A model generated the notes under the pieces. That model had not been told where the DNA came from and did not search any database. It worked only from the letters and a program-made list of their open reading frames with translations. A stretch of 35,030 nucleotides of DNA, from contig JAHDIR010000026.1 in NCBI GenBank assembly GCA_020630675.1, forward strand, positions 1 to 35,030. The letters run 5' to 3'. This DNA comes from Bdellovibrionales bacterium. Lineage in GTDB: Bacteria > Bdellovibrionota > Bdellovibrionia > Bdellovibrionales > UBA1609. The translations under genes were made by a program, and so were the position numbers. Shown piece after piece: positions 22,213 to 35,030 of the stretch (positions are counted from its first letter, which is position 1; each line of letters starts with the position of its first letter).

Positions 22213-23088
22213 TTAAAAGTGCCAAGGGTATTTGGAAAAATCTCTTGGTCTTTTTTCTAAAAAGGCCTCTTTACCTTCAGCGGCTTCATCACTGTCGTAA
22301 GCAAGCCGAGTGGCTTCTCCGGCAAAGAGCTGCTGGCCGACCATTCCATCATCAGTTAAATTAAAGGCATACTTTAGCATTCGTATGGCCGTAGGGCTTT
22401 TACTATTGATTTCTTTACACCAGGCTAAAGCTTCTGTTTCTAATTGACTATGTTCAATGACGGCGTTGACCATACCCATTTCAAAAGCCTCTTGAGCAGA
22501 ATAGCTTTTTCCTAGAAAGAATATTTCACGAGCTCTTTTTTGACCGACCATTTTAGCTAAGTAAGCCGAGCCATAGCCTCCATCAAAACTAGCAACATCA
22601 GCATCAGTTTGTTTGAATTGTGCATGCTCTTTACTTGCTAGTGTTAAGTCACAAACAACATGTAAAGAGTGTCCGCCGCCGACTGACCAACCAGGCACTA
22701 CGCATACAACCACTTTGGGCATAAAACGAATTAATCGTTGAACCTCTAATATATGCAGGCGTCCCATTTGAGTTTGGTCTCCATATTGATAGCCAGTTCG
22801 CCCTCTAACTCTTTGGTCGCCACCAGAGCAAAAAGACCAGCCACCGTCTTTTGGTGAAGGTCCGTTGCCTGTAAGAATAACAGACCCAACTGAGCGATCC
22901 TGTCTTGCGTGTTCAAGGGCAGTAAAAAGCTCGTCTACGGTTTGAGGGCGAAAAGCATTTCTGACTTCTGGGCGGTTAAAAGCCACTCGCACAGTTCCTT
23001 GGTTTTTTGCTTTATGATAAGTGATATCTTGAAAAGAAAATCCCTCGACGTCTTGCCACAAGTTGGCGTCAAATATTCCAGTAGACAT
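22213..23088 (-). CDS. menB: 1,4-dihydroxy-2-naphthoyl-CoA synthase
   Basis: 291 residues, crotonase fold, closely resembling E. coli MenB: NRPEVRNAFRPQTV, FCSGGDQRVRG, GWSVGGGHSLHVVCDLTLA and the C-terminal RPRDFSKYPWHF. It cyclises o-succinylbenzoyl-CoA in menaquinone synthesis. At the active site the sequence is QTDADVASFDGG with Asp162, where bicarbonate-dependent enzymes have Gly, so this is the type II form that uses its own carboxylate. GAGGT precedes the ATG. Other men genes are not in the window. Its stop lies three bases from that of the convergent PLP enzyme gene, leaving no room for a terminator. Confidence 0.96.
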   Translation of the reverse strand: MSTGIFDANLWQDVEGFSFQDITYHKAKNQGTVRVAFNRPEVRNAFRPQTVDELFTALEHARQDRSVGSVILTGNGPSPKDGGWSFCSGGDQRVRGRTGYQYGDQTQMGRLHILEVQRLIRFMPKVVVCVVPGWSVGGGHSLHVVCDLTLASKEHAQFKQTDADVASFDGGYGSAYLAKMVGQKRAREIFFLGKSYSAQEAFEMGMVNAVIEHSQLETEALAWCKEINSKSPTAIRMLKYAFNLTDDGMVGQQLFAGEATRLAYDSDEAAEGKEAFLEKRPRDFSKYPWHF

Positions 23089-23326
23089 ATTACCTCACTT
23101 TATTGGAGTTTATTTTATATATCTTAAGGTTTAGTACAAAATTTTTATTTGAACAACTTGAAACCTCGTAAAACATAAACTGACTTTTAAATGGAAAACC
23201 TTTTAAACATTATTTTGTATAGATTGAAAATGTGAGAAGACGTGAGAATTATTTTCTAAAATATAGCTCTTTATTCAGAAACATGATTCAATTCATATAG
23301 ATGCTATTTATAAGTAGGAGACCATT

Positions 23327-25402
23327 ATGAAGCCCCCTTGTGCCCCCAAATACCCTAAAAAAATTGTTCAACACGATGAAGCTCGTACGGACAATTACCA
23401 CTGGTTAAGAGATAAAAATTGGCAAAAATTTTTACAAGGAGATTTAAACTTTGATAACTCAGAAGTGAAGGCTTATTTAGAGGCAGAGGCTTCTTATACT
23501 GAATCAGTGATGGCCAGCACTCAAGAACAACAAAATAAGTTTTATCAAGAAATTTTAGGGCGAATTAAAGAAGATGATGAAACCTATCCTTTTGAACGCA
23601 ATGGTTACTTTTACTTTCAAAGAACAACAGAAGGAAAAAACTACCCACAGTTATTTCGTAAAAAAGGAAGCCTGGAGGCTAAAGAAGAGCTTTACTTTGA
23701 TGTTAATCAAGAGGCTGAAGGAAAAAAATTATACCTTTTTTCAGGCGGTCAGCCCAACGACAATAATCAGTGGCTAGCTTATTCTTTTAACTTAACCGGT
23801 TCGATGGAAAAAACTTTAAAGGTTAGAGACTTAAGCACAGGGAAAGACTTCCCTTGGGAAGTAAAAAACTGCACAGGGTCTTTTATGTGGGCTAACAACG
23901 AAGAAATTTACTTTGTAGAAAGGGGGCCTGAGGGACGGGGGCAAAAAATCTTTTTGTTTCGTGTTGATAAAGGACCAGAGTCCAAAGAACTCATTTTTGA
24001 AAAACCAGAGTCTTGTAACGATATGTTTATGAGTATTTCAAAAAGTAAAACTAAAAAAGTGCACTTTGTTTATATGGCTAGTGGGTCAGAGACCAAAGTT
24101 TATTATAAGTGGAGCACAGAAAATAAGTTTAAATTATTTTCCGAAGGCAAAAATGATGTTGATTTTAGTATTGATCACCGAGATGGGTGCTTTTATATAA
24201 GAACTAACCATGGTCAGGCCAATAACTACCAAATTTATAAATGCTCTGAAAGCAATGTTCAATTTTCAAATTGGCAAATTTTTATTAATGAGCAAAACAG
24301 TAAATATCTAACCGACTTTGCTATTTATGGGTCTAAAATGTTGTTGATGTATAAAAATAATGAAACAGCAGTGGATGAAGTTTCTATTTTAGATTTAAAT
24401 GATAAAACTCAAAAAAAAGTTTCTATGTCTGAACCAGCTTATACATTAAGTTACTCCGGTGCCTTTGACCCACAGTCAACAAAGGTAAGGTTTTACTACG
24501 AGTCTTGTCGTCAGCCGTCTCAAGTTCTTGACCTTGATCTTTTGTCAGGACAGTTCCAAGTTTTGAAAAGCAAAGAAGTGCCCAATTTTAACCCTGACAA
24601 CTATGTACTCAAAAGAGAGTACGCCAAAGGTCATGATGGCGAGATGATCCCATTATCAATTCTTTATAAAAAAGGCTTTAAAGAAATGACTAATAAAAAA
24701 GCCTTTGTTTATGCTTACGGTTCCTATGGCCTTGGCATGCCAGCCTTTTTTTCGCCGGGTATTTTTAGTTTAGTTGATCGCGGCTTTGTGTCTGTTATTG
24801 CCCATATAAGAGGAGGGGATGAAAAGGGTTTTGATTGGTATTTAAGTGGAAAAAAACAAAATAAAATGAACACCTTTAAAGATTATATAAGCTCTTGTGA
24901 GTACATGATAAGCCAAGGTTATGTTAAGGCAGGGGATATTGTAGCTAATGGTGGAAGTGCTGGCGGAATGCTTATGGGGGCTGTTGCGAACATGAGGCCT
25001 GAGCTTTTTCGTTGTGTGATTGCTGATGTTCCATTTGTGGATGTTATAAATACAATCTCAGACGAGACTTTACCATTAACGCCTCCTGAGTGGGAAGAGT
25101 GGGGCAATCCCATTTTAAATAAAAAAGATTATCAATATATGATGAGCTATTCCCCTTATGATAATATTGAAAAAAAAGAGTACCCCTCAATGCTTTATAA
25201 CTCAGGTATTTCTGATGAGCAGGTCACCTATTGGGAGCCTGCGAAAATGGTAGCTAAACTTAGAGAGTTAAAAACCGACAACAACACCTTGTTGTTAAAT
25301 ATTAAAATGCACGCAGGCCATGTCGGAGCCTCTAAAAGATATGAAGCTATTAAAGAAAGAGCCTTTAATTTTGCTTTTATCATGAAAAGTTTTAGCTTTT
25401 AA
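23327..25402 (+). CDS. ptrB: Oligopeptidase B (S9A serine peptidase)
   Basis: 691 residues, typical length. The N-terminal DNYHWLRD and a beta-propeller region (about 80-410) precede the alpha/beta-hydrolase domain. The catalytic triad is Ser544 (NGGSAGGML), Asp630 (SGISDEQVTYWEP) and His665 (MHAGHVG). PPEWEEWGNP and YSPYDNI are typical of oligopeptidase B, which cleaves short peptides after Lys or Arg in the cytoplasm or periplasm. No signal peptide is seen. TAGGAGA precedes the ATG. In a predator such an enzyme could finish degradation of prey peptides, which is inference. Confidence 0.93.
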   Translation: MKPPCAPKYPKKIVQHDEARTDNYHWLRDKNWQKFLQGDLNFDNSEVKAYLEAEASYTESVMASTQEQQNKFYQEILGRIKEDDETYPFERNGYFYFQRTTEGKNYPQLFRKKGSLEAKEELYFDVNQEAEGKKLYLFSGGQPNDNNQWLAYSFNLTGSMEKTLKVRDLSTGKDFPWEVKNCTGSFMWANNEEIYFVERGPEGRGQKIFLFRVDKGPESKELIFEKPESCNDMFMSISKSKTKKVHFVYMASGSETKVYYKWSTENKFKLFSEGKNDVDFSIDHRDGCFYIRTNHGQANNYQIYKCSESNVQFSNWQIFINEQNSKYLTDFAIYGSKMLLMYKNNETAVDEVSILDLNDKTQKKVSMSEPAYTLSYSGAFDPQSTKVRFYYESCRQPSQVLDLDLLSGQFQVLKSKEVPNFNPDNYVLKREYAKGHDGEMIPLSILYKKGFKEMTNKKAFVYAYGSYGLGMPAFFSPGIFSLVDRGFVSVIAHIRGGDEKGFDWYLSGKKQNKMNTFKDYISSCEYMISQGYVKAGDIVANGGSAGGMLMGAVANMRPELFRCVIADVPFVDVINTISDETLPLTPPEWEEWGNPILNKKDYQYMMSYSPYDNIEKKEYPSMLYNSGISDEQVTYWEPAKMVAKLRELKTDNNTLLLNIKMHAGHVGASKRYEAIKERAFNFAFIMKSFSF

Positions 25403-25450
25403 ATATAAATAAAATTTTTCGTTTTTAACGAGGTGTTAAGGGGTGTGTCA

Positions 25451-25474
25451 ATGGGCTTTTTTTAAAAAGCCCAT
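25451..25474. terminator. Terminator-like perfect inverted repeat between convergent genes
   Basis: ATGGGCTTTTT (25451-25461) and AAAAAGCCCAT (25464-25474) form an 11-base stem with a two-base loop. It sits between the ends of the peptidase and RND genes. There is no external T run on either strand, but the stem carries its own T/A tracts, so it may act weakly in both directions. Confidence 0.4.
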
Positions 25475-25482
25475 AATGTATG

Positions 25483-28400
25483 TCATTGTAATACAGGTGG
25501 CTGCGAAGAAGGCGGTGGCGGCGGAAAGCTAGCCGGGTGTAAGTCTTCTGAAATTTCTGGGGTCTTTTTGTTTTGTGGTTCTTTTTCTGCCAATGGTTTT
25601 CTTGTATTGAATTTATTGTTTTGACTCTTTGACCCTAGCCCTATTTTTTTCAAAAGCCATCTTCCGCCTCTTAAAATATCTTCACGAATTTCTAGTAAAG
25701 CTGGTAAAACAAAAAGAGTGAGCAGTGTTGAAAAACTAAGGCCCCAAGCCATCGAAAAAGCCAATGGCTGTGTAAAACCCGACTCTCCGCCAAAGGCATA
25801 AGCCATGGGGAAAACACCTAGTAAAGTTGTGAGTGTGGTGAGTAAAATGGCTCTTAATCGCGATGAGCAGGCATCAATTAAAATGCCTCTGTTCATTATG
25901 CCTCCACGGGCTTTTTGGAGTCTATTAATTTGATCCACCATAATGATAGAAGAGTTGACTGAAACGCCTATGGTTCCCACCAATCCCACCATGGCCATAA
26001 GCCCCATTGGCAAGTTATGAAAATAAAGGGCTAAAATAATTCCAATCACCCCAAAAGGAATAGGAAGTCCAACAATAAGAGGCTGAGTGAGTGACTTTAA
26101 AATAATAGCTAAAACAAAAAGTACACCCAACATACATATAATAGCGACTTTAAGGGCCCAGGATTGGTTACTTTGCTCTTGGTCAGATAAGTATTGAGCG
26201 TCAAAGGTGTATTGATTAAACTTGATAGTAAGGGGCTCAATGGCAGCGGCCAGTGCTTTATTAGCTTGGGCGCGGTTAGAGCTTTTTGCCACTTTAAAGT
26301 CCATCGAAAACTGTCTGTCTCCGTTTTTATGAATAAGCTTTTTTAAATTTTCTTTTTTTTCCCAGCTCCCTAAAAGATAGGCCGGTACTGATACACCTTG
26401 AGGCGAAATGATTTCTAGTTGATCAAGGTCTTTTTTAATCCAACTTTCTTTATTCTGAAGCTCAGTATATACCCAAACGCTCTCACCATTCATTCGAGTT
26501 TCTATGAGATGATCTGCAGAAAAGTAACTTCTTATTTGTTGAGCTAACTCTGGCGGCGGAATTTTATGTAAACTCAAATTAGCAACGTTGGGGTTGAACT
26601 GCCATGAGGTCTGAAAAAGTTCAGTATCTGGAGAGTACTCTTTTAATTCTTTTAAACCCTTTGTGGCTTCTAAAACTTCACTCTCTAAAGATTTAAAATT
26701 GAGCTGATCAGAGCCTCTAATGTAGAGAGTCACCATATTTTCTTTAGATTCATTATTTCCTTCTTGATGAGTAGAAACTTCAATTTTTTCAAACTGGTTT
26801 TGGTTATATTTTTTTATAATTTCATCAACCAGGGGAGTGATACGTTTCATTTGTTTTTGCGGGTAGTTGTCGGTTCGGTTTGGAAATAATGATATTTGTA
26901 CATAACGAGGAGAGTTTTTAACTTTACCATCAGTCCATACAGAGCCAATTTGCGTGGACACATTTGTGACTTCTTTTTTGGGAAGTTGTTGTAAAGCCTT
27001 TTCAAGATCTTTAACTTGCTCAAAAGAATGATCTAATGAGGTCGATTTTTTGAGGGTTGCATTTATGGTTATGTATTCTGGGTTAATTCTAAAATCAAAA
27101 TTCTTTTTAATTTTTGTTGAAGCAATATACCCAGCACAACCGACTAATCCTATTAGAACTAAAAAGGCAATGTAGCGTCCCTTAATAATAAAATGCAAAA
27201 CATCTTTATATTTTTTAGTGACTGAGTTCATAAACTTGTCTGCTTTTGGAAGGGAGGGCTTTTGCGCAAAGTGAGCAAGGTGATTGGGAAGAATAAAAAA
27301 TGATTCAAACCAACTAATAGCCAATGCTGAAATTACGACAATGGGAACGGCATAAAGAAGAGTGCTCATTTCACTTTTAATAAAAATAAGTGGAGAGAAG
27401 GCTATAACCGTAGTAAGAATAGTGCCCGTGACTGGAATAATTAATTCTTCAACTGCTTTTTGGGCGGCTTCTTTAGGGGGTAGGCCCGAGCTTAAAAGCT
27501 CATTGTATTTTTCAGCAACAATAATGGCATCATCAACCAAAACACCGATAACTAAAATCATACCAATGATAGAAAGCAAATCAATATTTAAACCAAAAGA
27601 GTATAAGATAATGAGTGTTCCAAAATAGGCCAGTGGTAAGCCTAGGGAGGTCATAATTGCTGTTTTAAAATTTAAAAAAATAATAAGAGTCAATAAAACA
27701 AAAATAAAGCCAATAAAGCCATTTTTTGTGAGCACTTCAATTTGTTGTAAAATAAAACGAGGGCCATCAAGAAAAGAGGAAATTTTAATATTATCAGGAC
27801 TATTTTTATTAAACCTCTTAATAACCTTATCCGTTTTTTCTTTTAAGTCGATAGAGTCTGAGTTGAGGTCTTTTCTGACTCCGGCGGAGATTCCTGGCAG
27901 ACCATTAACCATTTGCTTTGTTTTTACAGTCCCTAGCTTATAAGAAACATCAGCAATATCTTCCAGCTTAACTTCAAAGCCAGAGGCATTTTTTCTTAGA
28001 ACCAATTTTTTTAAGTCTTGGATATTGTTAACAGTGCTGTTTAATTTGACTTCAATTTTATCTTTACCGTTATCAATTTCACCCACGGGCAACATGACAA
28101 GGGCGCCACGCAATAAATTTCTTACACGAGTGGTTGATAAGTTATGCTTATCTAATTGTTTTGGTTTTAATTTAATATAAATATCTCTATCTTTAAAGTC
28201 AGAGTTTGTTTTGGCCACTCCCTTAATTTTTAATAATGAGTTTTTAAAGTTCTTAAAAAACTGCCTATGTAGTGTATTTTCTTGTTGAAGCCCTTCTAAT
28301 CCTAACCAGTATAAAAAAGTATCTTTAATTTCGGCACGGCGAACATTAATTGATCTTATGTTTTCAGGTAAAGTAGACCTGATTCTATCAATTTGAGAAC

Positions 28401-28731
28401 GAACCATTTCAGCGGATTGATCCATTTGATCGTAATCAGAGTTATATTTTATTGATAAAGAAGATAAACTATTGGAGCTGGTAGATGTTACCTCTTTGAC
28501 TCCAACTAAATTTTTTAAACTATCCTCAACCGGGTAGGTCACAAACTTTTCAACCTCTTCAGCTGTCCCACCAAAAAGGCTGATGTTGACCTGAACACTT
28601 GGAAATTGCAGAGCCGGAATGAGGTCTCTATTCATAAGGCTCATACAAACTAAGCCAACAATAATAATAAAACCTGAAATTAGGTTTACGATAAAGCTAT
28701 TTTCAATGAAGTAGGTAAATATTTTTTTCAC
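25483..28731 (-). CDS. RND efflux transporter permease
   Basis: About 1082 residues from GTG 28731, chosen because GTGA overlaps the upstream stop and gives the usual RND N-terminus (KKIFTYFIENSFIVNL); a TTG at 28749 would add six residues. Twelve membrane spans in two halves with large periplasmic loops are expected. TM4 carries GVLVDDAIIVAEKY with the paired proton-relay aspartates (about 400-401). The TM10 region reads GVSVNSSIIMVDQ, where the AcrB lysine is replaced, as in the V-N-N/S subgroup. The cytosolic C-terminus is a Lys-rich then proline-rich tail with five consecutive prolines. It exports drugs, lipids or metals; the substrate cannot be read from sequence. It forms an operon with the TolC-like gene, without a membrane fusion protein gene. 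Confidence 0.92.
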   Translation of the reverse strand: MKKIFTYFIENSFIVNLISGFIIIVGLVCMSLMNRDLIPALQFPSVQVNISLFGGTAEEVEKFVTYPVEDSLKNLVGVKEVTSTSSNSLSSLSIKYNSDYDQMDQSAEMVRSQIDRIRSTLPENIRSINVRRAEIKDTFLYWLGLEGLQQENTLHRQFFKNFKNSLLKIKGVAKTNSDFKDRDIYIKLKPKQLDKHNLSTTRVRNLLRGALVMLPVGEIDNGKDKIEVKLNSTVNNIQDLKKLVLRKNASGFEVKLEDIADVSYKLGTVKTKQMVNGLPGISAGVRKDLNSDSIDLKEKTDKVIKRFNKNSPDNIKISSFLDGPRFILQQIEVLTKNGFIGFIFVLLTLIIFLNFKTAIMTSLGLPLAYFGTLIILYSFGLNIDLLSIIGMILVIGVLVDDAIIVAEKYNELLSSGLPPKEAAQKAVEELIIPVTGTILTTVIAFSPLIFIKSEMSTLLYAVPIVVISALAISWFESFFILPNHLAHFAQKPSLPKADKFMNSVTKKYKDVLHFIIKGRYIAFLVLIGLVGCAGYIASTKIKKNFDFRINPEYITINATLKKSTSLDHSFEQVKDLEKALQQLPKKEVTNVSTQIGSVWTDGKVKNSPRYVQISLFPNRTDNYPQKQMKRITPLVDEIIKKYNQNQFEKIEVSTHQEGNNESKENMVTLYIRGSDQLNFKSLESEVLEATKGLKELKEYSPDTELFQTSWQFNPNVANLSLHKIPPPELAQQIRSYFSADHLIETRMNGESVWVYTELQNKESWIKKDLDQLEIISPQGVSVPAYLLGSWEKKENLKKLIHKNGDRQFSMDFKVAKSSNRAQANKALAAAIEPLTIKFNQYTFDAQYLSDQEQSNQSWALKVAIICMLGVLFVLAIILKSLTQPLIVGLPIPFGVIGIILALYFHNLPMGLMAMVGLVGTIGVSVNSSIIMVDQINRLQKARGGIMNRGILIDACSSRLRAILLTTLTTLLGVFPMAYAFGGESGFTQPLAFSMAWGLSFSTLLTLFVLPALLEIREDILRGGRWLLKKIGLGSKSQNNKFNTRKPLAEKEPQNKKTPEISEDLHPASFPPPPPSSQPPVLQ

Positions 28732-30152
28732 AGTTGGCTCGCTTTGCAAGAGTTAATATCTGGGTGAATTAACAGAGACACTCGAACTTTGTTTTTTAAG
28801 TAAGACTGAACTAAATCAATCCAGTTGAGTTCGCTGTTTAACTCAAAATCTCTATATTGAATGTAGTCTCTGAGTTCGATTTGCCCAGATTTTAGAAGTT
28901 TAAAAGCCTCTTTAGTTTGCTTTTGTTGTAATTTTTTTTGTTTAGCAACAACATCAAGCTGCTGCTTTAAAAGTTTGTCCTGTTTAAGAGAGTTTTCAAG
29001 ATCATTAGCTAAGCTTCTTAGTTGAAGGTTTCTTTCATTTTCGGCTTTTTTCCACTGGTAATGACTTTCTTGTCGGTTAGCTTTTAAACTCTTGTCATTT
29101 ATAGGTATATCTATGGATAGGCCTATGGTTGTTGATTCGGCATTTTCTAAGCCGTTAGGTATTACAAATTGATTATCATTTTTAGAGGCTTCGGCGTAGA
29201 AGGTCAATTCTGGCTTGGCAAGATTAGATTGCGATTTAAAGGTCCATTTTAAAGATTCAATATTTTCGTCAAAAGCCTCTTTATATTTTGGAGAAAGTTG
29301 GGAGCTCGTCACTAAGGCCTTAGAACTAGAGTTGAGGTTTGGTGTGTGAAGCTCTTCAATAGAGTCAACAGGCCTTTTAATAGCTGTCGCTAATTGTGTT
29401 TTTTGTAGGTTAAATGAAATTTTAGAAGCTGCTAGTTTTTGTTCATTGTTAAGGTGGTCAGACTGAGCTGTAAGTAATTCGATGTTACGAACAAGTTTTG
29501 CTCGATGAGATCTTTTAATGGACTTTAAAACTTTTAGTGAGTTTTTAAATATTTTTTCACTGATTTGAAGTTGAGCCTGACTTTTTAATGTATCTAAATA
29601 AAGGTCAATAGCATCTGAGCAAAGTTTAGCCTGTTCGATGGCGTTGTTAAGGGCTTGGCTTTTATATTTTGCCTTAGCTAGGCGAGTGTTTGACCTTTGA
29701 TTGTAGCCCAGGCCATTGCGCCACAAACTTTGCTCTAACCTTATGTAATAGTTGTTATCGATAGTTCTGTCATATTCAAAAAATGAAGTGACTGTTGAAT
29801 TCTCTAGCCATTTTTTAGCACCAGCACGAAGTAAGGTTCCTGAGGCTAAGTTTTGCTGATAATCCACACTAATAGTTTTTTCTCGGTCCCAAGATTGATT
29901 CACCAAATTATCTTTTTGGCTTCTTTGTTCTGGACGAAAAGATAGAATTGCGGAGTATTGGTTATCGACTTTATCTCGTTGAGCCGCAGAGGTTTTTAGG
30001 TCTAGGTTTAAATTTTTAGGACTTTCGTTTTCGTTAAAATAATTATTGAGAAAGTCGTGTAAACTGATTTTATTTGGCAGATTGGCAGTAGCCAAGTGAC
30101 AGTAAAGATTAAAGAAACAAAATAAACCTAGACATAATAGTTGCTTAAACAA
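28728..30152 (-). CDS. TolC-family outer membrane efflux protein
   Basis: 474 residues from a TTG start with GGGGAGG five bases upstream. A signal peptide ends near ATA-N at 21-24. The remainder alternates long amphipathic helices (about 165-255 and 370-455) and short beta segments, with YIRLEQSLWRNGLGYNQRSNTRLAKAKY and LSIDIPINDKSLKANRQESHYQWKKAENER matching the two OEP repeats. It would form a trimeric channel through the outer membrane for the coupled RND pump. First gene of the two-gene unit. Confidence 0.85.
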   Translation of the reverse strand: MFKQLLCLGLFCFFNLYCHLATANLPNKISLHDFLNNYFNENESPKNLNLDLKTSAAQRDKVDNQYSAILSFRPEQRSQKDNLVNQSWDREKTISVDYQQNLASGTLLRAGAKKWLENSTVTSFFEYDRTIDNNYYIRLEQSLWRNGLGYNQRSNTRLAKAKYKSQALNNAIEQAKLCSDAIDLYLDTLKSQAQLQISEKIFKNSLKVLKSIKRSHRAKLVRNIELLTAQSDHLNNEQKLAASKISFNLQKTQLATAIKRPVDSIEELHTPNLNSSSKALVTSSQLSPKYKEAFDENIESLKWTFKSQSNLAKPELTFYAEASKNDNQFVIPNGLENAESTTIGLSIDIPINDKSLKANRQESHYQWKKAENERNLQLRSLANDLENSLKQDKLLKQQLDVVAKQKKLQQKQTKEAFKLLKSGQIELRDYIQYRDFELNSELNWIDLVQSYLKNKVRVSLLIHPDINSCKASQL

Positions 30153-30434: not shown

Positions 30435-33400
30435 ATGAGCAAGTATATTGCGATAATAACTATTATGGTGTCTACGGCATTCGTTGCCTTCAACTTTCAA
30501 AACTGTGCCAAGTCGAGCTTTAGTATAAGGGATTCTCTAAGTGATGACCCAGCTCAAGGCTTAAATACATACCCACGTTCTTGCCGAGAGTATTATGAAA
30601 ATGGATCTTGTCAAAGTGGCGTTTATAAAGTGGACCCAGATGGCAACGAACTTGGTCTTGACCCTTTTGATGTTTATTGTGATATGGAAAATTATGGTCG
30701 AACTCTTGTGGTGAATGCTCCTAGTGACGGCTATACTGGAATTCCAGAAGCCAACGAGGTAACAACCCCAGATAAGCTCGGTCGATTGTCAGATACAAAA
30801 ATTTCCTTACTTTTACAAAATACGCAAAATTCTACTTATAATAATGTGGCCGTTGATGTTTCTACCGGTCAAGAAAATCATACTGTTTCTTTAAATACGA
30901 ACTCTTCAAGTAGCAAGGGTCAGTATGTAGTGGGAGACTCGGCTAACGAACTTTGTGACAATTACGATGCCGGAGTAGATGGGGCAGTTTATACCAATTC
31001 TGACAAATGGGCCTTTGGTAATGGTTCTGGGGACGGTTTTATTGGTTATTTAGACGATCAAGTTTCATCAAGCCCATATACAGGTTTTACAATGGAAATT
31101 GTTGGAGCCGGCGATAAAGCTTGTAACAAAACTGGTCCGATTCCTGCCGCACAATATTTAAAAGGATCTATGTGGGTTGTTGAAGGTTACACACCACATG
31201 AAGCTTGTCAGCAACCACCAGAAGCTATTAATGGTGGTTGGAGTGATTGGTCTGATTTTGCAGATGTGACAACTTGTAGCGCTGATTGTAATAAAAAACA
31301 ATCCAGAGTGCGTGCTTGTACTAACCCTGAGCCAGCTAATGGTGGTTCAGATTGTACATTAGTAGATGGAGGTAACTCTAAAGAAGAACGTGATATTTCT
31401 TGCTCTTATGGAGAAGGGGAGTGTGTTGCTCCTCCGGAAGATGTTGATGGTGGTTGGACAGATTGGAGTGACTGGACAGAGTATAAGCCATGTGATGAGT
31501 CTTGTACTAAGCAAGAAGTTTACTCACGAACTTGTACTAATCCTACACCGGTAGGTAACGGGAAGTTATGTGAAGGTGGAGATGGTCACTCGGAGTCAAA
31601 AATTAGAATCGTTTCTTGTTCACCAGGGGAAGGAGCATGTGCCCCATTACCAATCCATGGTGGTTGGAGCCCTTGGTCGGCTTGGACAGATGTTGGTCAG
31701 TGTGGACCGAACTGTTTGAAAGATCAAAAGCGAACTCGTACATGTACAGAGCCAGCACCAGCTAATGGTGGTAATGATTGCTCACAACTCGATGGCGGCT
31801 TAGCAGAAGAAACTAGAACAGCAAGTTGTCAAGATGGAGAAGGTCAGTGTGATGCCACACCTCCGATTGATGGTGGTTGGACGAATTGGTCAAACTGGGA
31901 GCCTTATAGTCAATGCTCTGCTGATTGTGAAAAAGATGTAAGACGAGTGAGAGCTTGTTTGAACCCGGCTCCAATGAACGGTGGAAATGATTGTTCTCAG
32001 TTAGATGGTGGTAATGATTTTGAATTAGAAACTAGAACTTGTAGTTATGGTGAAGGTCTTTGTAAGCCGGCTCCAATTGACGGTGGATATACGGATTGGA
32101 GTTCTTGGGAGCCTGCTGGGGAGTGTTCTCAGTATTGTAAGCAAGACATTATTAGTACAAGATCTTGTACAAACCCAGTGCCTCAGTATGACGGTAAAGA
32201 CTGTTCATTACTTGGGCCAAATATTCAATCTAAAATGAGAGAGTGTGAAATTGGCGAGGGCTTATGTAATGGCTTAGCTAATGTGATCCTATTAGGTGAT
32301 AACCCTGAAAATTATGGTTCGAATGCCCCAGGTGTTCCAAATGATCATACGATTACTTACAAAAACATTGGTGGGCTTCCGGCCACAGATTTCACACTGT
32401 CTGGCTTAGGGGATAAGTTTCAGTTTAAAGGCGGAAACTTCCCTGGTGAAGGCGGAACTTGTACAAGTGATAAGGTCATCAAGACTGGAGTTTCTTGTAA
32501 TGTGATTGTGACCTTCTTATCTAATGACTTAGGAACTTTTAATGGTCAACTTGTTGCTGACTATAATAATGGAAAAGAAGTTAAACAATTAACTCGCGAC
32601 TTAGTGGGTGTTGTTGATCAAGATGGACCTGCAAAATTAACAATCACTGGAGGAGACTTTGGTGTGACTTCACCAGGGTACCCTGTTGATGGCACAGTGA
32701 CTGTTACTAACGAAGGTGAAACAGACGCAACCAATTTATTAATACCAAATATTGATCCTCCATTTGTATTAAAAGGAGGAGAGTATCCTGGTACGGGTGG
32801 AACATGTGATAAAGACCCAGCTGTTTTAAAAGCGGGAGCTTCATGTACTTTAGTTCTTACTTATAACCCGACAGAACTTGGAAGTCATATTGTTCCTCTC
32901 AACCTAAATTATAATACTGGTTCGGCACAAAACACAGCTTCGGCTCCTTTGAAAGGACAAGCCTCTGACAACTGCCCGACTTGCCCAATTGATGGTGGAT
33001 GGTCGAATTGGACCTCTTGGGTTAAGAAAGGAGAGTGTGGATTAGACTGTAAAAAAACAGAAAAAAGATACAGACAGTGTAACAACCCAGCTCCGCAAAA
33101 TAATGGAAAAGATTGTGTGGGAGAGTCCGAGCAATCAAGAGATGGAGTTTGTAACCCGGGTGAAGATTTCTGTCCTCTTCTGGCTCTTTTAGAAATTGAA
33201 GGAGACACTCAGTTTGGAACCATCACCGTAGGAGAAAGATCTCCGATACATACATTCACTGTTACTAATGTTGGTGGTCGAACGGCAACAGAATTAAATG
33301 TTAGTCATTTAACCAATGGTATGACAGGAAACTTCCAAGTTTTAGGGGGTACATGTATTGGAAAGAACACATTAGCTTCGAAAGCAAGTTGTACAGTTGA

Positions 33401-35030
33401 AGCTCAATATGTTCCTGTGGCTCCAGGAATGCATTCTCACTTAATTTCTGGAACTTATAATAATGGTGCAGAGAAAAAGACTGTGAGTACAACAGTTTCG
33501 GGCTCAGCCAATTTAGGACCGGCACTTGTTGAAATTACGGGTGATGGAGATTTTGGTGAGCAGTTAGTTGATTCAACAACACCAGCTACTTTTACATTAA
33601 CAAATATTGGAGCGCAAACTGCAACAGGTATCAAGTACGACGGCTTAGAAGAGCCTTTTGTAAGAGACGGCGGAAGTTGTACAACAACATTGGCAAAAGG
33701 AGCCTCTTGTACCATCATTGTTAAGTTTAATCCAAAAGACGACGGAGACTTTAATGATGTATTAGAAATTCCATTTAATAATGGAGTGGCTAGTCAAAAC
33801 TTAACTCAGTCAGTGGTAGGTAAAGGTAAACATAAGCCAGCAGAAATTAAAATGACTTGTGTGCCTAAAGATTTTGGTGCAGTAGAAGTGGGACAAACTC
33901 AAACTTCCACTTGTACTCTTACAAATGTGGGAGGCCAGCCGGCACAAGGGTTTGTTGTTGGTGAAATGAACCTTCCTTTTGTACACACCGGCGGAACTTG
34001 TAAGCCAGAAACTATTTTGGTGCAAGAAGGTTATACTGTAAACCCAGAAGGGGGAGAGGCCATTGCACTTCCTGAAGATGGAGTTGAAAGTTGTACTTAT
34101 GTATTTACATTCACTCCGACTGAAAATGGAAACTTCACAGGCCCTGTGAACATCACATACAACAATGGTGATGGTCCAGGAACTGTTGGTCAAACTTTGA
34201 CTGGTCAAGGTAAGAGCTTACCGGCAAGGTTGACCATTACAGGAAACCAAAACTTTGGAAACGTAAGTTTAGGTGCAGATCCTGCGAACACGAGAACATT
34301 CACTGTTGTAAATGTTGGGGGAAGAACAGCCACAAATATTAAATTAAAAGACTTTGTGGTTCCTTTTAGCCTTCTAGATAGTGGAAGCTGTAATGGAACT
34401 TTAGCTAAAGATAAAAGCTGTACCTATGTAGTTCAGTTTGATCCAAAAAGAGAAGGTGCTTACCAGCAAGATATCACTTTTAGTTATAGTAACGGAGTCA
34501 ACACTCTTGAGCGTCCGTTACAAATTAGAGGATTTGCAAACTACTCTTTAGCAGCCTTAGGCGCTGATATCAATCCACCTGACTTTGGAACAATTAATGT
34601 TGGTGGTGAAGAAACAGCTATCGTTACAGTTACCAATGGTGGAGGCCAAACGGCAAAAGGTATTCAAGTTTCAGGAATATCGGCTCCATTTACTCAAGTG
34701 GGAACTTGCCCTGCAACTTTAGAAAAGGGAAAGAGCTGTACATTTGCAGTTAAATACAACCCTAAAAAAGTGGGAGTAAGCCGAGACACTGTGATTATAA
34801 ACTATAACAATGGTCGACAAGTAAGAACTTTCGAACTTCCAATTGTTGGTAGAGCAATAGCACAGCCAGCTGACCTCGTCGTTGATTGTCAGCATAACTT
34901 TGGAACTGTTAATGTTGGTAGCACTTCAGAAAGAGTTTGTGTTGTAACAAATACAGGCCATCAAACCGCAAAATCGATAAGAATTGATGGTTATAAAAAG
35001 GATATAGAACTTTATAAGCAAGGTAAATTA
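30435..35030 (+). CDS. Giant surface lipoprotein, fibrinogen-like + thrombospondin repeats + ASH-type domains (3' end outside window)
   Basis: Open for 1532 codons from ATG 30435 to the window edge. The signal peptide ends NFQN with presumed lipid-bearing Cys24. Residues 46-265 resemble the bacterial fibrinogen-like domain: PRSCREYY, CQSGVYKVDPDG and PFDVYCDMENYG, but the G-G-G-W-T motif is replaced by G-R-T-L. Residues 267-611 are five thrombospondin type 1 repeats, each with W-x-x-W, C-x3-C, R-x-R-x-C-x-x-P and G-E-G-x-C. Residues about 615-845 are two ASH/choice-of-anchor-D-type beta domains. A sixth TSP1 repeat (853-915) and at least six more ASH-type domains (FGTVNVGS...VTNTG pattern) follow, the last cut by the edge. 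Anchored surface adhesin or fibre is the likely role (inference). The reading frame has no stop in the window. Confidence 0.9.
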   Translation, partial: MSKYIAIITIMVSTAFVAFNFQNCAKSSFSIRDSLSDDPAQGLNTYPRSCREYYENGSCQSGVYKVDPDGNELGLDPFDVYCDMENYGRTLVVNAPSDGYTGIPEANEVTTPDKLGRLSDTKISLLLQNTQNSTYNNVAVDVSTGQENHTVSLNTNSSSSKGQYVVGDSANELCDNYDAGVDGAVYTNSDKWAFGNGSGDGFIGYLDDQVSSSPYTGFTMEIVGAGDKACNKTGPIPAAQYLKGSMWVVEGYTPHEACQQPPEAINGGWSDWSDFADVTTCSADCNKKQSRVRACTNPEPANGGSDCTLVDGGNSKEERDISCSYGEGECVAPPEDVDGGWTDWSDWTEYKPCDESCTKQEVYSRTCTNPTPVGNGKLCEGGDGHSESKIRIVSCSPGEGACAPLPIHGGWSPWSAWTDVGQCGPNCLKDQKRTRTCTEPAPANGGNDCSQLDGGLAEETRTASCQDGEGQCDATPPIDGGWTNWSNWEPYSQCSADCEKDVRRVRACLNPAPMNGGNDCSQLDGGNDFELETRTCSYGEGLCKPAPIDGGYTDWSSWEPAGECSQYCKQDIISTRSCTNPVPQYDGKDCSLLGPNIQSKMRECEIGEGLCNGLANVILLGDNPENYGSNAPGVPNDHTITYKNIGGLPATDFTLSGLGDKFQFKGGNFPGEGGTCTSDKVIKTGVSCNVIVTFLSNDLGTFNGQLVADYNNGKEVKQLTRDLVGVVDQDGPAKLTITGGDFGVTSPGYPVDGTVTVTNEGETDATNLLIPNIDPPFVLKGGEYPGTGGTCDKDPAVLKAGASCTLVLTYNPTELGSHIVPLNLNYNTGSAQNTASAPLKGQASDNCPTCPIDGGWSNWTSWVKKGECGLDCKKTEKRYRQCNNPAPQNNGKDCVGESEQSRDGVCNPGEDFCPLLALLEIEGDTQFGTITVGERSPIHTFTVTNVGGRTATELNVSHLTNGMTGNFQVLGGTCIGKNTLASKASCTVEAQYVPVAPGMHSHLISGTYNNGAEKKTVSTTVSGSANLGPALVEITGDGDFGEQLVDSTTPATFTLTNIGAQTATGIKYDGLEEPFVRDGGSCTTTLAKGASCTIIVKFNPKDDGDFNDVLEIPFNNGVASQNLTQSVVGKGKHKPAEIKMTCVPKDFGAVEVGQTQTSTCTLTNVGGQPAQGFVVGEMNLPFVHTGGTCKPETILVQEGYTVNPEGGEAIALPEDGVESCTYVFTFTPTENGNFTGPVNITYNNGDGPGTVGQTLTGQGKSLPARLTITGNQNFGNVSLGADPANTRTFTVVNVGGRTATNIKLKDFVVPFSLLDSGSCNGTLAKDKSCTYVVQFDPKREGAYQQDITFSYSNGVNTLERPLQIRGFANYSLAALGADINPPDFGTINVGGEETAIVTVTNGGGQTAKGIQVSGISAPFTQVGTCPATLEKGKSCTFAVKYNPKKVGVSRDTVIINYNNGRQVRTFELPIVGRAIAQPADLVVDCQHNFGTVNVGSTSERVCVVTNTGHQTAKSIRIDGYKKDIELYKQGKL
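31233..32267 (+). repeat. Five tandem thrombospondin type 1 repeats
   Basis: Units begin with Gly-Gly-Trp (Gly-Gly-Tyr in the fifth) at residues 269, 341, 411, 482 and 552, so the period is 70-72 residues (210-216 bases). Each has six cysteines in the TSP1 group 1 order and ends G-E-G-x-C. Motifs such as NGG-x-D-C and SQLDGG recur almost unchanged between units three and four, so some duplications are fairly recent. A sixth, separate unit lies around 32990-33180. Confidence 0.9.
33180..35030 (+). repeat. Array of ASH/choice-of-anchor-D-type domains
   Basis: Consecutive units of about 100-120 residues start with patterns such as LEIEGDTQFGTITVGE, VEITGDGDFGEQLVDS, LTITGNQNFGNVSLGA and INPPDFGTINVGG. 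Each continues with VTN-x-G, a G-x-C...L-x-K-x-x-S-C pair and F-x-P-K. Five complete units and one cut by the window edge are visible here; two related ones precede the sixth thrombospondin repeat (32280-32930). Confidence 0.85.

Follow-up and report, generated by a model that had tools for sequence, protein, structure and literature searches.

Thrombospondin type 1 repeats joined to fibrinogen-related and ASH domains in a lipoprotein-type gene of an uncultured Bdellovibrionales genus

Gene extent and domain order

The window, a stretch of 35,030 nucleotides, corresponded to contig C43:1-35030 of a 3.1 Mb genome (99.9% complete, 110 contigs), and the contig runs on past it to position 38763. 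The last part of the window (30435–35030, + strand) is occupied by the first 1532 residues of a large gene, whose frame is open at the window end. An assembly gap of 10 N (35031–35040) lies directly behind the window, after which the frame resumes to the stop at C43:37031. The complete gene (C43:30435-37031, equal to L003:2436-9032, + strand) encodes 2198 residues, including 93 cysteines, so that its completion to the stop, which the preliminary description of this locus had proposed, was achieved across the gap. The 10 N are probably a placeholder for a gap of unspecified length, with the frame across it unproven by this genome itself. Two orthologues (L032 and L033; 2335 and 2284 residues) were ungapped and colinear with the gene on both sides of the gap, which makes it very likely that a single gene comprises the two halves. 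In both orthologues, the counterpart of the final 30 bases of the window (35001–35030, encoding DIELYKQGKL) was missing, and no second copy of them was detected across the genome; they may represent a contig-edge error or an insertion.

Judged from its sequence, the gene is of the lipoprotein type and combines a fibrinogen-related domain, real thrombospondin type 1 repeats (TSRs) and ASH domains, a composition given in the preliminary description and borne out by Pfam and NCBIfam profiles. The order of domains in the window was a signal peptide with an FQN-C lipobox, a GGGWT-type domain, TSRs 1–5, ASH domains 1–2, TSR 6 and ASH domains 3–8. Past the gap, the series continued with a seventh, degenerate TSR, then a ninth ASH domain and an undescribed domain of ~145 residues in two copies, and it closed with two terminal TSR-like repeats. 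The TSRs had been placed between a head and a stalk; five of them do follow the head, but the sixth lies inside the ASH series and the degenerate seventh outside the window. In both orthologue genomes, an enoyl-CoA hydratase-like gene was the ORF just upstream of the lipoprotein gene; in the window, genes for a prolyl oligopeptidase, an AcrB-type transporter and an outer membrane efflux protein (22213–30152) intervene between the two.

Lipid anchor and domain composition

The protein starts with a predicted signal peptide and lipobox (30435–30506, + strand; Cys 24) of a lineage-type form. A canonical lipobox, with G/A/S at position −1 and the usual residues at −3 and −2, was not found, since the sequence reads F-Q-N-C with Asn at −1. 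The corresponding FQNC codon pattern was present at 36 sites genome-wide vs. 13 for the backwards-read pattern. Under a strict rule (ATG 12–45 residues before the motif end, a hydrophobic stretch, and at least 60 residues after), 17 of the 30 FQNC sites read (L084–L113) qualified, and about 22 of the 30 were judged by eye to lie behind an N-terminal-type hydrophobic stretch. TSR proteins from other genera of the order carried FQNC or NNC at the equivalent position. Because FQNC is over-represented and N-terminal in this genome, and FQNC or NNC occurs in TSR proteins of the order, lipidation is likely, and the gene was assigned as a likely lineage-type, rather than canonical, lipoprotein. The bacterial lipobox described earlier was therefore retained as a motif common behind hydrophobic stretches in this genome, although a non-canonical one. 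Signal-peptide predictors trained on canonical lipoboxes may overlook FQN-C lipoproteins. Besides the one at 30435, FQN-C lipoboxes were also present within 178–1443 and 1440–2993 of the window.

The fibrinogen-like (GGGWT_bact-type) N-terminal domain (30573–31208, + strand; residues 47–258) was matched by known models over residues 47–94 only. Fibrinogen_C (Pfam) scored 24 bits against a cut-off of 22, with only profile positions 2–47 of 221 matched; a full-length match to a complete fibrinogen C-terminal domain (~220 residues) was not obtained, and matches to PDB sequences stopped near residue 61. Scores for GGGWT_bact (NCBIfam NF040941; cut-off 30 bits) were 34.7 bits in the window gene and 36.5 and 36.6 bits in the orthologues. 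The N-terminal ~40 residues of the head thus resemble the YCDxxxxGGGW domain over the cut-off, whereas the GGGW motif is replaced by YGRT in the window gene and no model matched the other ~160 head residues. Most of the head could be aligned with one relative in the order (L123), which retains DGGGW. The structure model of the head had pLDDT values below 50, too low to be of use. Since the protein would be lipidated at its N-terminus, the fibrinogen-like part would adjoin the membrane and the C-terminus would be the far end, the reverse of a head at the tip. Of the fibrinogen-like head proposed before, the likeness was recovered for the first ~50 residues and not for the remainder, and the domain is predicted to be membrane-proximal, with the distal tip outside the window. 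Two more GGGWT_bact proteins were encoded in the same genome (L030:174-4301 and L031:3085-5535, both on the − strand), with the domain located towards the C-terminus.

Five TSRs follow on the + strand (31230–31424, residues 266–330; 31446–31640, residues 338–402; 31656–31850, residues 408–472; 31869–32063, residues 479–543; 32079–32267, residues 549–611), and the sixth (32991–33173, residues 853–913, + strand) is located between ASH domains 2 and 3. As previously stated, each contains exactly six cysteines (30 in repeats 1–5 and six in repeat 6); the W-x-x-W pattern assigned to all of them was present in five, with Tyr in place of the first Trp in repeat 5. The spacing from C1 to C4 was identical in all 18 repeats of the three orthologues, and every TSR cysteine was invariant. 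Profile searches for TSP1, an empty result of which had been named beforehand as a refutation, returned matches: Pfam TSP_1 passed marginally (21.7 vs. a cut-off of 21.6 bits), TSP1_CFP_C reached 31.8 (cut-off 27), and a profile made from five animal repeats gave the whole protein 181 bits and recognized seven domains in it (21.9–42.0 bits). With the animal-repeat profile, neither the reversed protein nor the ASH region produced a score, and none of 200 shuffled versions of the TSR region exceeded 5.0 bits. Compared to PDB sequences, the array matched UNC5B (2.5e-13) and thrombospondin-1 (6e-13), and a profile of the bacterial repeats matched thrombospondin-1 at 6.6e-22. An AlphaFold model of head and array contained two long strands per repeat. 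With the modest confidence of its TSR part (pLDDT mostly 53–79), Foldseek ranked properdin on top (2.5e-10), with thrombospondin-1 at 2.9e-6, and VIA gave a best Z of 4.8 to a BAI1 TSR.

On these sequence characters, the six window repeats are genuine TSRs. They have WxxWxxW, the six ordered cysteines, the R-x-R-x-C strand and the NP-x-P-x-NGG-x-x-C stretch in common with animal TSRs (PF00090; thrombospondin-1, UNC5, properdin), but differ from them in the spacing from the last Trp to C1, which is three residues longer, in a longer C4–C5 loop and in the bacterial lipoprotein that hosts them. The sequences of repeats 1–6 also lack the C-x-x-S/T-C-x-x-G motif for O-fucosylation, which makes them a case of TSRs that would have to fold without this animal motif. 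A search for the C-mannosyltransferase Dpy19 gave no match, and its control likewise matched nowhere. The window gene was not assigned to the animal thrombospondin whole-protein family, as no Pfam match to type 3 repeats or to the thrombospondin C-terminal domain was found.

The ASH (choice-of-anchor D) domains were detected with Pfam and NCBIfam profiles, with boundaries set by eye, and comprise domains 1–2 (32280–32963), 3–7 (33183–34856) and 8 (34863–35030), all on the + strand, the last being cut by the assembly gap; the boundary of the ninth, beyond the gap, was also set by eye. HYDIN Ig (PF22544) scored 152.8 bits in eight stretches (cut-off 25.5) and choice_anch_D (NF012200) 207.6 bits in seven (cut-off 45). 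Eight domains of the choice-of-anchor D/HYDIN-ASH type (NF012200, PF22544, PF15780) thus start in the window, far over the cut-off, in a series that differs from others of this type in being broken by a TSR.

The distal part of the gene contains a conserved cysteine-containing domain of ~145 residues (L003:7768-8649, C43:35767-36648) that reads CTVV-x-SIGTALPPANVVQAEF...WKQFIKFEKC, its start also being written CTVV-x-SIGTALPPANVVQ. Two copies were present in the window gene and one in each of the two orthologues; no Pfam or PDB sequence match to this domain was found, and a C-terminal profile searched against PDB sequences was also empty. Both orthologues end in GH115_C (PF17829; 30.1 and 37.4 bits, cut-off 24.1), and a fold search with a weak model of the orthologue distal end placed GH115, CBM35 and CBM6 structures nearest. 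The orthologues have no glycoside hydrolase catalytic domain, and the window gene has no such GH115_C/CBM35-like terminal module.

Distribution and evolution

The two full-length orthologues belong to the same uncultured Bdellovibrionales genus and retain the architecture at 52–54% identity. Of the three further genomes of this genus, two contained the TSR array; in the third (64% complete), the head was present and truncated by the contig end. A whole-genome search with PF00090 alone gave no match, not even in the genome that contains the window. Individual repeats of the long-loop type score too low for this model, and the bacterial-repeat profile was used in its place. With this profile, 14 of the 369 genomes of the phylum were found to carry TSRs, on secreted proteins that included a subtilase, a trypsin-like protease and a di-haem peroxidase bearing lectin domains. 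Within the order, further lipoproteins with TSRs contained B_lectin and Laminin_G_3 (L028) or a weak Glyco_hydro_99 match (L027). As to the survey for the same architecture that had been suggested, GGGWT, TSR and ASH domains occurred together, among the loci looked at, in the focal genus only. One orthologue genome encoded a second TSR lipoprotein (L024:2554-4062, − strand), in which two long-loop TSRs precede a repetitive region that appeared propeller-like by eye.

In textbooks, TSRs figure as domains of adhesion and matrix proteins from animals and apicomplexans, the groups from which, as the preliminary description stated, they are best known; the domain is yet scattered over several bacterial phyla and not confined to eukaryotes. 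A scan of 84,980 species genomes with short patterns, the count being a lower bound, returned at least 20 related loci, among them loci from Patescibacteria, Thermodesulfovibrionia, Halobacteriovoraceae, a Burkholderiales MAG and a Pacearchaeota archaeon. Several TSRs of Patescibacteria, unassigned bacteria and the archaeon (L036–L048 and L050) were very near animal repeats. A phage or plasmid origin was rejected, as there was no match in phages or plasmids. A viral contig collection contained one TSR on a cysteine-protease-like ORF (L052), a different protein.

In a tree of the repeats of the three orthologues, starred support was obtained for the grouping of repeats 1, 4 and 5 with the repeats at the same positions in the orthologues; repeat 2 joined one such counterpart, repeat 3 grouped by position with a weaker signal and repeat 6 had no resolved placement. 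This grouping by position indicated that most of the array predates the split of these species. The dN/dS of the array was ~0.22–0.26 between the window gene and its orthologues, with synonymous sites near saturation. Together with the architecture and TSR cysteines kept at 52–54% identity, these values indicated that the protein is functional.

The proximity of the TSR sequences to UNC5B and thrombospondin-1 could point to a recent gene transfer from an animal, or to eukaryotic contamination of the assembly. The gene was, however, present in separate MAGs of the genus and has bacterial neighbours, and the lipobox and bacterial-type ASH domains are located within the same ORF as the repeats. 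Moreover, the long-loop TSR type is unlike animal repeats, and GC3 of the TSR part (0.25) equals that of the rest of the gene, so that no recent import is visible. The results contradict transfer or contamination, which is highly improbable. The repeats are too short to settle an animal vs. a bacterial origin of the domain.

Proposed function and comparison with known systems

We propose that the gene product may be a very large outer-membrane-anchored lipoprotein that acts as a multi-domain adhesive stalk, a reading to which we assign a probability of about 0.5. The lipid would keep the N-terminus in the outer membrane, as suggested by Ala at +2 and the absence of the inner-membrane Asp signal. 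The TSRs, locked by disulfides, and the ASH domains with their cysteines could together make up an extended rod measuring some tens of nanometres, and the DsbA-family proteins encoded in the genome were counted in favour of disulfide formation. The TSR faces and the distal modules (in the orthologues, the GH115_C/CBM35-like fold) might attach to glycans or proteins, be it on the surface of other cells, on matrix or on particles, with prey as one conceivable target. The carbohydrate-binding-type terminal module of the orthologues and the lectin or carbohydrate-related domains on other TSR lipoproteins of the order argue for an adhesive stalk. Arguments against it are the missing CBM-like end of the window gene, the non-canonical lipobox, the low to moderate confidence of the structural models, and the many roles that TSRs and ASH domains serve, plain spacers included. 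A further-reaching version, in which a matricellular-type adhesion protein of genuine TSRs serves surface contact with prey or other cells as in animals and apicomplexans, and in which bacterial TSRs form a pool exchanged among phyla whose age equals or exceeds that of the animal repeats, seems unlikely.

Rather than being a cell-to-cell adhesin, the protein could instead serve feeding, with the GGGWT domain and the CBM-like end binding sugars for the capture of polysaccharides or particles and the rest acting as a spacer. The GH115_C module in both orthologues, the GH115, CBM35 and CBM6 structures as nearest folds, and the proteases and lectin-domain proteins that carry TSRs elsewhere in the phylum are consistent with this. 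However, linked polysaccharide-utilisation genes were not found, the neighbours encoding an AcrB-type pump, an outer membrane efflux protein, a prolyl oligopeptidase and an enoyl-CoA hydratase, and the CBM-like end is missing from the window gene, which leaves capture for feeding rather doubtful. A structural role in the envelope or extracellular matrix, by self-association in an S-layer or biofilm-like form and with no foreign ligand, would suit the length, repetition and disulfide richness of the protein (93 Cys in 2198 residues), and ASH/choice-of-anchor D domains are frequent in repetitive bacterial surface proteins. Envelope scaffolds, however, tend to have a broader distribution than this protein, which was confined to a single genus, and its C-terminal modules vary between orthologues, which fits a changing ligand better than a scaffold; we therefore consider a purely structural role improbable.

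Every domain type found here is already known, and TSRs occur in other bacteria of our survey; in the literature searched, no description appears to exist of the way the domains are combined, of the TSR subtype with long loops or of the giant architecture restricted to one genus. In that literature, which included few subscription papers so that absence is weak evidence, 'thrombospondin type 1' appeared nowhere together with Bdellovibrio or Planctomycetes, and the term was absent, within the same scope, from the top papers on Patescibacteria, Myxococcota and Bdellovibrionota. A conserved TSR array in an outer-membrane-type lipoprotein, together with the scattered bacterial TSRs, provides material for asking about the origin of the fold and about a possible use of it by bacteria for contact.

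Among known systems, myxobacterial TraB contains thrombospondin type 3 repeats, a domain other than the TSR. The MAT trimeric fibres of Bdellovibrio are long surface fibres with exchangeable tips within the Bdellovibrionales, described in a paper that mentions no thrombospondin or fibrinogen domain (PMC10769870). S74 fibre-type proteins were also encoded in the genome studied here, as in Bdellovibrio, and Pfam searches gave no match to the S74 chaperone domain in the window gene or its orthologues. The lipoprotein differs from the MAT fibres in having no S74 or phage-type beta-helix match and in its predicted attachment through an N-terminal lipid anchor.
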